Source of the DNA: Desulfobacteraceae bacterium | GTDB taxonomy: Bacteria; Desulfobacterota; Desulfobacteria; Desulfobacterales; BuS5 | Assembly: GCA_030642865.1 (NCBI GenBank) | Contig: DAOWMW010000026.1 | Location: forward strand, 1-10,088 | Direction: 5' to 3' | Length of the DNA stretch: 10,088 bases | Part shown: piece after piece, positions 4,965 to 9,857 of the stretch | Layout: every line of letters begins with the position of its first letter | Position numbering within the stretch: position 1 is the first letter of the stretch | Program-made: the position numbers and the translations under genes | Notes under the pieces: model-generated | Seen by the model: the letters and a program-made list of their open reading frames with translations, nothing else | Databases searched by the model: none | Told to the model about the DNA's origin: nothing

Positions 4965-5540
4965 TTATTTTCTGAGTATATTATAATACCTTATAACTCT
5001 TTTTACATATTCTTCTGTCTCTTTAAATGGGGGAATATCATTATATTGAATAACGCGATTTGGGCCGGCATTGTATGCTGCAAGGGCAAGGGGAAGTTTC
5101 CAGGAAAATTGCTGCAAAAGGCTTTTTAAATAACGTGTTCCCCCCATGATATTTTCGGAAGGGTTATAGGGATTGTTGATTTTAAACGATTTAAGATTTT
5201 TCGGCATGATCTGCATAAGCCCCATTGCTCCAGCTTTTGATACAGCTTTTGTGTTAAAATCAGATTCTGCCTTTATCACGGCTTTTAAGAGTTGAAAGGG
5301 TACTCCGTGTTTTTTTGAGGCCTTAATAATTAAATGATCGTACTTGTCGTTAAAGTATAAACCAGGCTGATACTTTGGGTATTCTTTAAGGTACAGTTTA
5401 TATCCAGGGGATGTGGGTATATTTGTATAGTGGATTACTCCGGCTGCATCTATATACTTATATATATCAGCATATGTGGTAATCTTTGAGGAAAGGAGGA
5501 GTAAAAATAAAAATAAAAATATTTTAATGGGTATTTTCAT
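4965..5540 (-). CDS. Periplasmic lytic transglycosylase (SLT domain) with N-terminal DUF4124
   Basis: Cleaves the MurNAc-GlcNAc bond of peptidoglycan non-hydrolytically to give 1,6-anhydro ends, acting outside the inner membrane. The 191 residues start with a signal peptide (basic MKIPIK, then a leucine/phenylalanine-rich core, probable cleavage after TTYA at about 24). A short DUF4124-type segment follows (about 25-58, IYKYIDAAGVIHYTN), then the SLT domain (about 65-190). The predicted catalytic acid is E92 in the AESDFN motif, followed by GLMQIMP (107-113), AYNAG (155-159) and ETEEYV (174-179), all classical GH23 family 1 marks. There is no lipobox cysteine. Its start lies 6 nt after the stop of the upstream flavoprotein gene with only a weak ribosome site, so translation is probably coupled. 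The pairing with an isoprenoid reductase family gene has no obvious functional logic. Confidence 0.92.
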   Translation of the reverse strand: MKIPIKIFLFLFLLLLSSKITTYADIYKYIDAAGVIHYTNIPTSPGYKLYLKEYPKYQPGLYFNDKYDHLIIKASKKHGVPFQLLKAVIKAESDFNTKAVSKAGAMGLMQIMPKNLKSFKINNPYNPSENIMGGTRYLKSLLQQFSWKLPLALAAYNAGPNRVIQYNDIPPFKETEEYVKRVIRYYNILRK

Positions 5541-5546
5541 TTCAGA

Positions 5547-6722
5547 TTACCATCCATAGTATATGGCTCTGGAATATTCAAAAGCCTTCATTATTGGTAT
5601 TGATCCTTTTTTTATAAGTCCTGGATTTCGAAGGAGCATTAAAAGGCCTGTGCGGATCTTTTTTTGTATGGAAAATTCTTCCATCTCTTCTGGTATATAT
5701 CCTGCCAGTAAATTTAACTGGTCATTGGGCATATCAAAGTATAATTTTTTTCCACGTAACAGTTTTTTATAGGGAGGAAATTTTTTTTTCCATTCTTTTT
5801 GATATAATGAGAAGAGTTCTTTGCTGAAATTGTTAAGCTCCACTGCTTTTTTTGCAATATGGGCTGCTATGCATCCCGATTTTACGGCAAGATGTGTTCC
5901 TCCTTCGAATAAAGGGCTTGTAAAACCTGCGGCATCTCCTATTATCATCAACCCTTCACCATATGTTTCGTATAGAGGCCCCGATGCAGGGAGCCTTCCC
6001 CCTGTAATCCTGTTGGTCTTGATAATCCTGAAATTATTCGTTTTTATAAAATTATCCAGTCTTTGCCGAATATCGGAGGAATTTTCCGATATAAGCCCCA
6101 CGTTACAGGTGTTATCCCCCTTGGGAATAACCCAGAGATATCCTTTAAATACGAATTCAGGCCACAGGTAAAAATTTATAAAATCATTGGTGTCAAATCC
6201 ATCAACATGATATTGAAATCCGGAAATTGTCCTAAAGGGTTTTGTCAGTTTAAGGAGTCTGTTTGCAAGAGAAAGTACTCCGGATGCATCGATTAAAATT
6301 TTTGATTGTAATTTTTTCCCTGAAGCAGTTTCTATTTCCCAGGCACCATTATCCCTGGCCAGATTTGTTACTCTGGAATTCAGGTGGAGAGTTGCCCCTT
6401 TTTCGCAGGCTGTTTGAACCATCCATTGCTCAAATTTTTCTTTGTGCAGTATATAGCCGTTTTCAATAAGTTTTTTTGCAGATCCATTGGGAAATATTAC
6501 GCGTACACCTTTTACACGTGTTGAAACAACATGTTCAGGCAATGATAATCCTGAATTTTCAAGGGCATATTCTGAAAGACATTCTCCGCAATGAACAGGT
6601 TCCCCCACAGTTTTTTTTTTTTCAAGGATGACTGTTTTTAAACCGGCCTGGGCGCAGGCGATTGCTGCTCTGGCCCCACCAGGTCCAGCACCTGTAATTG
6701 CTACATCATAAAATTTATTCAC
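5547..6722 (-). CDS. Geranylgeranyl reductase family FAD-dependent oxidoreductase
   Basis: A flavoprotein of the GGR/FixC-like superfamily (COG0644 type); relatives reduce isoprenoid double bonds in chlorophyll side chains, archaeal lipids or menaquinone tails. The 391 residues show the FAD ADP-binding loop GAGPGG (11-16), the EKKKTVGEPVHCGECLS region (34-50) where GGR enzymes carry a conserved CGE motif (here C45-G46-E47, with C48 nearby), the GYLWVIPKGDNTCNVGL strand (194-210) typical of the substrate cavity and the second FAD motif GDAAGFTSPLFEGG (262-275). The start is GTG at 6722: an in-frame stop lies upstream with no in-frame ATG between, and the flavin loop begins at residue 9 as expected. 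The ribosome site is weak. Codons 34-38 contain a 12-nt A-run. It leads the transcript with the lytic transglycosylase and is divergent from the methyltransferase operon. The substrate is unknown; menaquinone or another polyprenyl lipid is the simplest guess. Confidence 0.85.
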   Translation of the reverse strand: MNKFYDVAITGAGPGGARAAIACAQAGLKTVILEKKKTVGEPVHCGECLSEYALENSGLSLPEHVVSTRVKGVRVIFPNGSAKKLIENGYILHKEKFEQWMVQTACEKGATLHLNSRVTNLARDNGAWEIETASGKKLQSKILIDASGVLSLANRLLKLTKPFRTISGFQYHVDGFDTNDFINFYLWPEFVFKGYLWVIPKGDNTCNVGLISENSSDIRQRLDNFIKTNNFRIIKTNRITGGRLPASGPLYETYGEGLMIIGDAAGFTSPLFEGGTHLAVKSGCIAAHIAKKAVELNNFSKELFSLYQKEWKKKFPPYKKLLRGKKLYFDMPNDQLNLLAGYIPEEMEEFSIQKKIRTGLLMLLRNPGLIKKGSIPIMKAFEYSRAIYYGW

Positions 6723-6816: not shown

Positions 6817-6921
6817 TATAGACCTTAAGATAATAATTTTGGGAAGGTCAGAGGGAGGAAGGCGTGTTGTAACACGCAGGCGGCAGATAACGCACCCAAA
6901 ATTTTTATCTTAAGGTCTATA
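6817..6921. mobile_element. MITE-like 105-bp inverted-repeat element
   Basis: Arms 6817-6843 and 6895-6921 are 27-nt inverted copies with 26 of 27 positions complementary; the only mismatch is at 6834/6904. Complementarity stops abruptly on both sides. If the element is taken as TAGACC...GGTCTA (6819-6919), it is flanked on each side by a TA dinucleotide, as expected for insertion by an IS630/Tc1-type transposase. Between the arms lie 51 nt containing a second perfect hairpin, GCGTGTT (6862-6868) and AACACGC (6871-6877). There is no ORF inside. The centre is G-rich, unlike the AT-rich arms. In RNA it would fold into a long stem with an apical hairpin. The repeat is directly visible; mobility is inferred. 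Confidence 0.65.
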
Positions 6922-6970: not shown

Positions 6971-8527
6971 ATGATAAAATTCCCTTTTCAGGCAATGGAT
7001 CCTGCTGCCCTCGATTTTCAGCATATTGAGGATCTCTCCACAGCCTACTGGTATTCCGAGGTACTCTTTACAGCTATCCGGTTGAAGCTGTTCATGTTTA
7101 TTGACCAGGGCTGTGCTGATTTAAAGGCTCTTGCAAAGGCTGCCCAGTGTGATGAAACAAAGCTTTTAAGATTTCTTGCTGTATTAAAACGGCTGGGATT
7201 GATTCATGAAATTGAAAACGGGTGGTGTAACAGCCAGGCTGCCGGTATTTATCTGGTTCCGAAAAACGAATCATATATGGGTGATTTTTTTCTGTACAGG
7301 CGGTATATGAAATCGAACTGGGAAAACCTTTTTAAAAGCCTTCAGGAAAAGAGGGGGGATCCCCCTGCGCAGGTTTCTGATGAAGAAAATTATAAAACAA
7401 GGATTTTCGATTATGTTCGTGCCATGGATTCCCTGGCAAAGCAGAAAGTTAATGAAATCATCCATATCCTTGCTGAAGAATCCTGGGAGCCCCCTGTTTT
7501 AGATGTGGGGGGAGGAGCCGGAGCCCTGGGGAGGTCACTGGTGCAAACAAAAAAAGACGGGTATGGAGTTTTGTTTGAAATTGCTGATGTAATAGAGGCA
7601 GCACGGATTCTCTATCCTGAAAAGACTGCGTGGGGAAGGGTGGGCACCATTGAAGGAGATTTCAGGAATTATCAGTTTGGCAGCGGACAAAGCTTCGGCC
7701 TTATATTATTAAGTAATATTCTCCATGCCTATTCCGAAAAGGAGGCAGAGGAGATACTCCAAAAGGCCCTCTCTATTTTAAAGGATGACGGGATCCTTGT
7801 AATACATGATTACTTTCCTGACCGCCATGGCCGGTCTCCGCAAAAAGGGCCCTTATACGATCTGAATATGATGTTAAATACATATAATGGAGTATGTCAC
7901 AAATCTTCCATATTAAGCGGTCTCCTTTTTCAATATGGGATGGCCAGAATTGATACCGTTGACCTTAACACAGATTCTGCCATTATAATTGCCAAAAAAA
8001 CTGATACTTTGAAAAGGAGAAAATCAGGTCTTGATGCCTGGGTTTACAATGCCCTTGACTGTGGGCTTTCGGGGGCTGTTTTAATCACTTCAGACAAAAT
8101 TGTTACAGGTCCCTGGGTACGGGAAAAATGTCGGTTTGGGTGTGCAAAGTATAATACAAATCTGCAATGCCCTCCCCATGGCATGGAAAGTGATGCTACG
8201 CAGAAAATGATAAATTCATATCAGCATGCTCTCCTTGTGGAAGGGACGCCCCCTGGCAAACAATTTCATAACATGCTTCTGGCGTTGGAAACAAAAGCCT
8301 TTCTCCATGGTTTTCACAAGGCGTTTGTTTTTGGTGCAGGCCACTGCCCTGTATGCGATAAATGCCCGGAGGATGGGAACTGCCGTTTCCCTGATAAGGC
8401 CAGGCCATCAATGGAAGGCTCCGGAATAGATGTTTATGCCACTGCCAAAAACAGCGGCATAGCTCTTAACCCGGTTTCAGCAAAGGGCCTTTATGTTAAA
8501 TATATTGGCCTTTTACTTTTGGAATAA
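6971..8527 (+). CDS. SAM-dependent O-methyltransferase-like protein fused to DUF2284 metal-binding domain
   Basis: A 518-residue two-part protein, probably cytoplasmic. Residues about 20-125 form a winged-helix dimerisation domain like that of BchU/CrtF/hydroxyindole O-methyltransferase relatives. Residues about 135-343 are a class I methyltransferase fold with the SAM loop LDVGGGAGALG (177-187), the LLSNILHAYSEKEAEEIL segment (246-263), where H252 sits near the catalytic-histidine region of this family, and ILVIHDYF (275-282). Residues about 355-518 match DUF2284, with seven cysteines in the pattern C387-x3-C391-x8-C400 and C459-x2-C462-x2-C465-x5-C471, followed by ARPSMEGSGIDVYAT (477-491); these cysteines probably hold an iron-sulfur cluster or metal. 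ATG 6971 is the first start after an in-frame stop at 6929-6931; the ribosome site is poor. The radical SAM gene begins 4 nt after its stop. Substrate unknown. Both domains look intact, with no frameshift at the junction. Confidence 0.85.
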   Translation: MIKFPFQAMDPAALDFQHIEDLSTAYWYSEVLFTAIRLKLFMFIDQGCADLKALAKAAQCDETKLLRFLAVLKRLGLIHEIENGWCNSQAAGIYLVPKNESYMGDFFLYRRYMKSNWENLFKSLQEKRGDPPAQVSDEENYKTRIFDYVRAMDSLAKQKVNEIIHILAEESWEPPVLDVGGGAGALGRSLVQTKKDGYGVLFEIADVIEAARILYPEKTAWGRVGTIEGDFRNYQFGSGQSFGLILLSNILHAYSEKEAEEILQKALSILKDDGILVIHDYFPDRHGRSPQKGPLYDLNMMLNTYNGVCHKSSILSGLLFQYGMARIDTVDLNTDSAIIIAKKTDTLKRRKSGLDAWVYNALDCGLSGAVLITSDKIVTGPWVREKCRFGCAKYNTNLQCPPHGMESDATQKMINSYQHALLVEGTPPGKQFHNMLLALETKAFLHGFHKAFVFGAGHCPVCDKCPEDGNCRFPDKARPSMEGSGIDVYATAKNSGIALNPVSAKGLYVKYIGLLLLE

Positions 8528-8531
8528 AGAT

Positions 8532-9857
8532 ATGAAAATTTTACTTGTACAACTTCCCACTTCCCATTTTGGTGCAAAAGAACTGGTATATCCCCTGGGT
8601 CTTTCCAGGCTTTCCTCTCTAGTGCCGGATAAATATTTTAAACATGTTCTGGATATGAATCTTTACGTTGATCCGTGGGAAAAGCTCCATGGGGTTGTGA
8701 AAGATGTAATGCCTGATATTGCAATCCTTTCCTTTAGAAACATTGATCCTCTGGCTGGTCACCAGACTTCCTATATATCTTCATTAAAAACCCCTGTAAA
8801 AATGATAAGATCCATGGTTCCGGAGGTCAAAATTATTGTGGGCGGCCCTGCCTTTACTTTGTTTGCAAAACGTCTTTTAGAGGAAATCCCGGAAATTGAT
8901 TATGGGATCTCCGGTGAAGGAGAGGTTGTTTTTCAAAAAATGCTAAAAGCCTCTTTTGAGCTGGAAAAGATTCCTGGACTGATTTGGAAAAACAAGGGGG
9001 ATATTATTCAGAATCGATCATGGGAAAAAACTGATATCGATTCCTTATCCATGATAGATGCTGAGTCTTTCAGACCCTCCGATTATCTGGAAAAAAATCA
9101 ATATGTAGCAGTAATGGGGATAGAGGGAAAGCGCGGGTGTGATTTAAGATGCAGCTACTGTACCTATCCGTATCTGGGAGGGAGGCGACTTCGCCTGCGA
9201 AATCCCGTAAAAATTGCAGATGAGGTTGAGTATCTAAAAAAGGAGTATGGGGTCAGGCTTTTTCATTTTACGGATTCAGTGGTGAACAGACCAGCGGATC
9301 ATTTCAGGGCAGTGTGCCAGGAGATACTTGGGAGAAAACTTGATATTGGATGGACAGGTTTTTTCAGGGAGACTGACCTCACCAGCGAACTTCTGAACCT
9401 TGCAGTCAGCTCCGGCCTTGTGGCGGTATATTTTTCCGGAGATGCCTTAACCGATGACGGTTTAAAAGTTTTAAACAAGCAGATGACAAAAAAAGATATT
9501 ATAAATGCCGCCAGAATAACAGCAAAGAGCGGAATACTTACAATGTGTCATTTTTTAATAAATCTTCCTGGAGAGACTCTTGACCATTTCCATGAAGCAT
9601 CCAGGACCATCGATGAAATTCTGGAGATACACGCCCCGGCAGGAAACCTTGGGGCTGTTATCTTTAATAATATAAGATTATACCCAAACGCTCCCATTAC
9701 AAATCGGCTGATAAAAAGCGGGATACTCTCACCTGATACAGATCTTCTTTTTCCTGTTTATTATAATCCTGAAAAAAATTCCCATTTTCTGCATCGTCTT
9801 GAAGCAAAGTGCCATGAAGCAGGTGTTTTTTCCAGGTTAGGATTGGGGATGAAATAA
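8532..9857 (+). CDS. Cobalamin-binding-type radical SAM protein
   Basis: A 441-residue protein of the B12-binding-domain radical SAM class (the architecture of BchE, HpnP and many class B methylases). Residues 1-150 form a Rossmann-like cobalamin-binding domain: LLVQLP start (4-9), VGGPAFT (103-109) and YGISGEGE (124-131). The usual DxHxxG histidine is absent, so any cobalamin would bind without lower-axial histidine, as in several characterised members. The radical SAM core (about 192-400) carries the [4Fe-4S] motif C203-x3-C207-x2-C210 (RGCDLRCSYC) and INLPGET (343-349). An ATG at 8493 would add 13 residues but lies inside the upstream gene. ATG 8532 is preferred because it begins directly at the domain's first beta strand, follows the upstream stop by 4 nt and has GGA 9 nt before it. 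Likely chemistry is radical methylation, cyclisation or rearrangement of a small molecule; the substrate cannot be read from the sequence. Confidence 0.88.
   Translation: MKILLVQLPTSHFGAKELVYPLGLSRLSSLVPDKYFKHVLDMNLYVDPWEKLHGVVKDVMPDIAILSFRNIDPLAGHQTSYISSLKTPVKMIRSMVPEVKIIVGGPAFTLFAKRLLEEIPEIDYGISGEGEVVFQKMLKASFELEKIPGLIWKNKGDIIQNRSWEKTDIDSLSMIDAESFRPSDYLEKNQYVAVMGIEGKRGCDLRCSYCTYPYLGGRRLRLRNPVKIADEVEYLKKEYGVRLFHFTDSVVNRPADHFRAVCQEILGRKLDIGWTGFFRETDLTSELLNLAVSSGLVAVYFSGDALTDDGLKVLNKQMTKKDIINAARITAKSGILTMCHFLINLPGETLDHFHEASRTIDEILEIHAPAGNLGAVIFNNIRLYPNAPITNRLIKSGILSPDTDLLFPVYYNPEKNSHFLHRLEAKCHEAGVFSRLGLGMK

Follow-up and report, generated by a model that had tools for sequence, protein, structure and literature searches.

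A BzaC-like O-methyltransferase carrying DUF2284 in a Desulfobacteraceae bacterium, and the probable role of DUF2284 as a separable module of anaerobic benzimidazole synthesis

Introduction

What does a cysteine-rich domain do at the end of an O-methyltransferase, and does it have to be there at all? The question is raised by a gene at positions 6971 to 8527 (forward strand, 518 amino acids) of the window, the whole 10,088-nucleotide stretch of Desulfobacteraceae DNA analysed here, in which a methyltransferase is fused to a domain of the DUF2284 family. Pfam and NCBI label the family as a predicted metal-binding protein. In the literature passages that name it, DUF2284 appears in table listings with no function given and unrelated to bza genes; a literature search on bzaC found no paper that deals with DUF2284 as part of BzaC; the principal study of that enzyme, which may mention the domain, lay outside the search. 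An earlier note on this DNA had proposed that the cysteine domain serves the methyl transfer carried out on the same chain.

The fused gene and its domains

The frame runs for 518 codons without an internal stop and, as the earlier note had claimed, joins a methyltransferase to DUF2284 in one protein. Three Pfam domains follow one another on the forward strand, namely the O-methyltransferase dimerisation domain PF08100 at 7016..7255 (codons 16-95; 35.7 bits, cut-off 25.6), Methyltransf_2 (PF00891) at 7424..7912 (codons 152-314; 57.6 bits, cut-off 22.3), and DUF2284 (PF10050) at 8084..8521 (codons 372-517; 128.7 bits, cut-off 25), which is the one DUF2284 domain of the genome. The SAM loop comprises D178, G180, G182, and G184, and the putative active-site residue is H252, which we take to be catalytic by analogy with the O-methyltransferase family. 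In an alignment of 44 homologues, hand-picked from the search results with one partial match (L008) excluded, D178, G182, G184, and H252 are invariant, and so are the seven cysteines that had earlier been singled out as conserved-looking (387, 391, 400, 459, 462, 465, and 471, out of 12 in the whole protein). All seven also recur in 20 of 20 fused loci, save C471 (19/20); the exception, L097, was read by eye as having one extra residue ahead of its last cysteine. By profile comparison, the best solved-structure relatives of the methyltransferase part are DsyB (7.8e-38) and hydroxyindole O-methyltransferase (5.3e-30), an affinity that suits 5-hydroxybenzimidazole as the substrate; both relatives lack DUF2284 and act on other substrates.

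The earlier note had called for a tabulation of how often the domains are fused in homologues, and had named a sequencing error as a possible source of the fusion. Among the matches listed of 512 homologues of the window's protein (P0001), 120 of 120 contain both PF00891 and PF10050, at 48-100% identity and with similar lengths of 506-564 residues. The fusion is thus genuine, widespread, and the usual state, and an origin in misassembly or sequencing error, rejected on these grounds, is exceedingly improbable. In the window's phylum, 237 of 395 genomes match the protein somewhere (E<=1e-10), mostly over one domain; the match spans both domains in at least five of the 395, the window's own genome among them, and covers the methyltransferase only, at E below 1e-36, in at least four (G196, G371, G185, and G274, the last across two stops). 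In the class of the Acetobacterium bakii genome (G395), eight of 391 genomes match at E<=1e-30. The methyltransferase-only protein of G371 (L078 7958-9025, reverse strand) scores 296 bits to Acetobacterium BzaC vs 196 to the window's protein, and no other bza gene was found near it.

DUF2284 is also joined to other methyltransferases, in the families NF041536 (ArsM/DUF2284) and NF045648 (MbdU). These selenoprotein fusions likewise place a methyltransferase or other part ahead of DUF2284, but the methyltransferase is of a different type and their selenocysteine corresponds to a cysteine in the window's protein. Membership of the latter in either family was rejected, the scores being 88.7 of 575 and 88.6 of 600 bits and confined to the DUF2284 part. 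Between five and eight DUF2284 matches were observed in each of G395, G396, G488, G582, G694, and G783, and every one of these genomes has an extra frame, about 460-540 codons long, that may encode a further DUF2284 fusion.

Probable identity as BzaC

Homologues of the 518-residue protein occupy the BzaC place in rows of bza genes, and BzaC is the 5-hydroxybenzimidazole O-methyltransferase of Eubacterium and Acetobacterium. The A. bakii and A. fimetarium homologues are 33-34% identical (query residues 6-518 and 6-511), and a Eubacterium protein of 518 residues with PF10050 (P0140), named '5-hydroxy-benzimidazole O-methyltransferase BzaC' by NCBI, is about 34% identical to the window's protein. 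The two domains, the length, and the seven cysteines are alike in the Eubacterium and Acetobacterium enzymes. According to a review, bzaC is the last gene of the bza operon in Moorella thermoacetica (PMC8123684).

The neighbourhood points the same way. Directly downstream, at 8532..9857 (forward strand), lies a gene for a B12-binding radical SAM protein, for which the BzaD model TIGR04385 is the best match but under its curated cut-off (405.6 bits vs 450), and the gene is therefore termed BzaD-like; by comparison, A. bakii BzaD reaches 735 bits and the corresponding gene of Desulfospira joergensenii, part of a C-D-E row, 402.7. The listed open reading frame starts at 8493, and the in-frame ATG at 8532, past the bzaC stop, is the likely start because it better fits the first matched residue of the model. 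BzaD adjoins fused BzaC at 18 of the 20 loci collected (exceptions L074 and L076; in L003 it is truncated by the contig end), and most relatives also have CobT and BzaE as neighbours. In one such locus (L073 7849-8727, reverse strand, G161), the BzaD frame after fused BzaC has just 292 codons, and no further BzaD match was found in the stretch examined. The pairing of a gene resembling BzaC with a neighbour best matching BzaD places the fusion within a known enzyme family, of which it is the usual state.

Unlike known bza rows, the window contains no bzaA, bzaB, bzaF, or cobT beside the bzaC-like gene, and BzaE is on another contig, where a BzaE-like radical SAM gene 54% identical to Desulfospira BzaE is found (C76, L015, 1159-2646, reverse strand), with an overlapping frame of 289 codons upstream. 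CobT was not found in the window's genome, an assembly of 1.6 Mb that is 67% complete. The single ThiC-family gene of that genome scores 614.9 and 573.3 with ThiC models vs 537.9 with BzaB, and A. bakii BzaA is likewise higher with one ThiC model (565.1 vs 551.7). Next to this ThiC-family gene is one for a cobA-type corrinoid adenosyltransferase (C216, L009, 186-1469 and 2058-2579), which may hint at BzaF, the choice between ThiC and BzaF being ambiguous by scores. Taken together, homology and gene order make it very probable that the gene at 6971-8527 encodes BzaC of the anaerobic benzimidazole (B12 lower-ligand) pathway. The earlier reading was right about the domains, the cysteines, and a radical SAM partner next door, and overlooked the pathway.

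On its other side, bzaC is flanked by genes for a lytic transglycosylase with an SLT domain (4965-5540, reverse strand) and a geranylgeranyl reductase-family FAD protein (5547-6722, reverse strand; TIGR02032, 181.8 bits, above cut-off). Just upstream of bzaC, at 6817-6921, is an inverted repeat of 27 nt, 96% complementary, with 51 nt between its arms, which folds far better than shuffled sequences (z -7.6) and matches nothing in Rfam; candidate explanations are a regulatory hairpin and a small mobile palindrome. With no Rfam family above gathering score anywhere in the window, no known cobalamin riboswitch is seen.

The two halves apart in Acetobacterium

The genus of G395, taken as Acetobacterium, offered a natural view of what happens when the domains part. 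All 19 genomes searched gave a match, and 18 were usable, G792 (a fragment with a stop, 2.2 Mb) being excluded from the counts. Fused BzaC, 69-100% identical to that of A. bakii, is present in seven of the 18, and the other 11 have a methyltransferase-only BzaC of 340-359 residues, which retains intact SAM-loop and active-site residues and lies in a bza operon whose other genes are all present unless the contig ends first. A second BzaC-like protein is encoded in 10 of these 11 genomes and in none of the seven with fused BzaC (Fisher p = 2.5e-4, or 5.1e-5 without G794, shared ancestry not being corrected for). In G794, the eleventh, the contig ends at the expected site; a possible DUF2284 relic seen by eye in a translated frame of its operon was not counted, blastn giving no significant match. 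The second copies, mostly of 44-49% identity (G800 has two pieces, at 59% and 43%, and that of G793 is cut by a contig end), lie away from the bza operon at a locus whose flanking genes are common to the genomes.

These second copies are the mirror image of the shortened BzaC. All ten have lost the SAM-loop residue D178 and the active-site residue H252, and all ten retain the seven cysteines together with R478, P479, M481, E482, G485, D487, and V488. Pfam finds DUF2284 in ten of ten and a catalytic methyltransferase family in none, the dimerisation domain being detected in nine at E<1e-3 and above cut-off in eight. Compared with the fused Acetobacterium proteins, the second copies are 67% identical over DUF2284 and 51% over the dimerisation region, against 29% over the SAM core. 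The median pairwise dN/dS of the second copies (eight of ten, the distant G582 and G797 being excluded) is 0.246 for the methyltransferase part, suggesting that even the degenerate part is still somewhat constrained, and 0.065 for DUF2284; the corresponding medians for the fused proteins are 0.087 and 0.118, from 11 and 13 of 21 pairs, the remaining pairs being saturated. When an Acetobacterium protein was used as the query, 109 of 120 among the matches listed (of 451) had both domains and eight were methyltransferase-only (P0148, P0149, P0150, P0154, P0156, P0157, P0160, and P0238). The other three (P0189, P0212, and P0231), which have PF10050 and PF08100 without any methyltransferase family in the precomputed Pfam list and are 49% identical to A. 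bakii BzaC, are probably further second copies with a dead methyltransferase.

Such reciprocal loss of domains indicates that DUF2284 is apparently kept by selection while being untied from methyl transfer on the same chain, and cells with the bza pathway appear to need DUF2284, though not on the methyltransferase chain. The earlier proposal that the cysteine domain serves methyl transfer on its own chain is weakened accordingly; the other suggestion of that note, a service to the neighbouring radical SAM enzyme, may still hold and comes near the role favoured below. The separation of the halves speaks against a role tied to the methyl-transfer step, unless they re-pair through the dimerisation domain. 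DUF2284 might still aid the O-methyltransferase itself, through substrate binding, product release, or protein stability, the Acetobacterium halves re-forming one enzyme as a heterodimer; this would fit the fused state of most listed homologues and the retention in second copies of a dimerisation domain better conserved than the SAM core. We consider it somewhat unlikely, given the 11 genomes whose methyltransferase-only BzaC has intact motifs and the four on the Desulfobacterota side in which a fused partner was not found either. Moreover, O-methylation with SAM is redox-neutral, and methyl transfer requires no metal or redox part.

History of the domain loss

In a tree of BzaA, BzaB, BzaD, BzaE, and CobT, fused and methyltransferase-only genomes are interspersed. 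The pattern of loss takes four Fitch changes (shuffled mean 6.35, minimum 3), and with so few events the Fisher p overstates the association. The tree of the methyltransferase domain (L005 was excluded from the two domain trees) places the methyltransferase-only genes in three clades (UFBoot 99, 99, and 100), and the fused G796 and G798 group with one of these clades (98) and stand separate from the next, the joining of G798 being weak (65). On these sequence trees, DUF2284 would have been lost from BzaC at least three times, if never regained, in lineages that now hold a second copy. The fused genome G796 still has both flanks of the second-copy locus, and between them lies a relic matched by five of the ten second copies over 61-88 bp at 76-82% (E 3e-9 to 2e-18), the other five having no significant match there. 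The ancestor of G796 thus had a second copy and lost it, and the fused gene stayed.

These observations also bear on the possibility that the second copy has acquired an unrelated new function, a few old events having coupled it to the shortened BzaC by chance. The small number of independent changes, the distance of the second copy from the bza operon, and a PPT-to-PGT change near residue 428 that distinguishes it from the fused proteins would all agree with this. Yet the second copy is found in all three methyltransferase-only clades and in none of the seven fused genomes, which belong to several branches; G796 bears a relic of it, and its DUF2284 is strongly conserved by dN/dS. Coincidence is therefore judged unlikely, and DUF2284 is probably a separable module that is still required. 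The full reading, in which the window's gene is BzaC and DUF2284 is such a module, is given a probability of about 0.7.

Fold and possible role of DUF2284

The predicted structure of DUF2284 has a moderate likeness to the nitroreductase-type fold of QueG, reductive dehalogenases, CblC, and BluB. Foldseek returned no match for the model at E<=1e-3, comparison with a profile of 21 QueG-family sequences in hhalign was not significant (probability 3.9%, E 0.011), no sequence relative in the PDB was found at E<=1, and a Pfam scan of 22 DUF2284 proteins at E<=5 turned up no second family consistently. In contrast to QueG and the reductive dehalogenases (class III B12 enzymes), CblC, BluB, and flavin nitroreductases, the DUF2284 cysteines lie within one domain of about 150 residues with no separate ferredoxin module. 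The two cysteine motifs probably hold iron-sulfur within the predicted nitroreductase-like fold. It has also to be considered that DUF2284 is a non-catalytic element, namely a sensor through which the enzyme responds to metal or redox state, or else a metal site for storage or structure, as the Pfam and NCBI label and the fusions to other methyltransferases in NF041536 and NF045648 would allow; the predicted fold and the long motifs conserved beyond the cysteines suggest that the domain does more than store metal, and this role is regarded as improbable.

For the separable module, a redox or corrinoid-handling role is favoured, albeit tentatively. The N-terminal two thirds of BzaC would catalyse the SAM-dependent O-methylation of 5-hydroxybenzimidazole or its riboside phosphate, the carbon methyl groups would be added next by BzaD, encoded by the adjoining gene, and by BzaE, encoded elsewhere in the genome, and DUF2284 would take no part in O-methyl transfer itself, acting instead in a redox or corrinoid step, for example by keeping the cobalamin of BzaD or BzaE reduced or loaded. 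In Acetobacterium, it is kept with the bza pathway, and the methyltransferase chain need not be the one that carries it. That DUF2284 strictly accompanies BzaD or BzaE was considered and found unsupported, with two exceptions in each direction: BzaE-like genes adjoin a methyltransferase-only BzaC-like gene in G185 and G274, and the fusion is present without an adjoining BzaD in G212 and G025. A more specific version, which as a whole is rather unlikely, would make DUF2284 a small, hitherto undescribed iron-sulfur module with a nitroreductase fold; it would bind a corrinoid or flavin and, by activating the B12-dependent radical SAM methylases BzaD and BzaE, serve the pathway that makes the lower ligand of B12 itself; duplication in Acetobacterium would have repeatedly split BzaC into a methyltransferase and a methyltransferase-dead carrier of DUF2284, a pair that may form a heterodimer.

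Implications

The gene of the window is an ordinary BzaC, and the natural separation of its domains in Acetobacterium is possibly a new finding. A domain for which the literature passages found give no function can thereby be tied to a known pathway, and the Acetobacterium genomes with BzaC divided into its two halves provide a ready genetic test of DUF2284 in anaerobic B12 synthesis.
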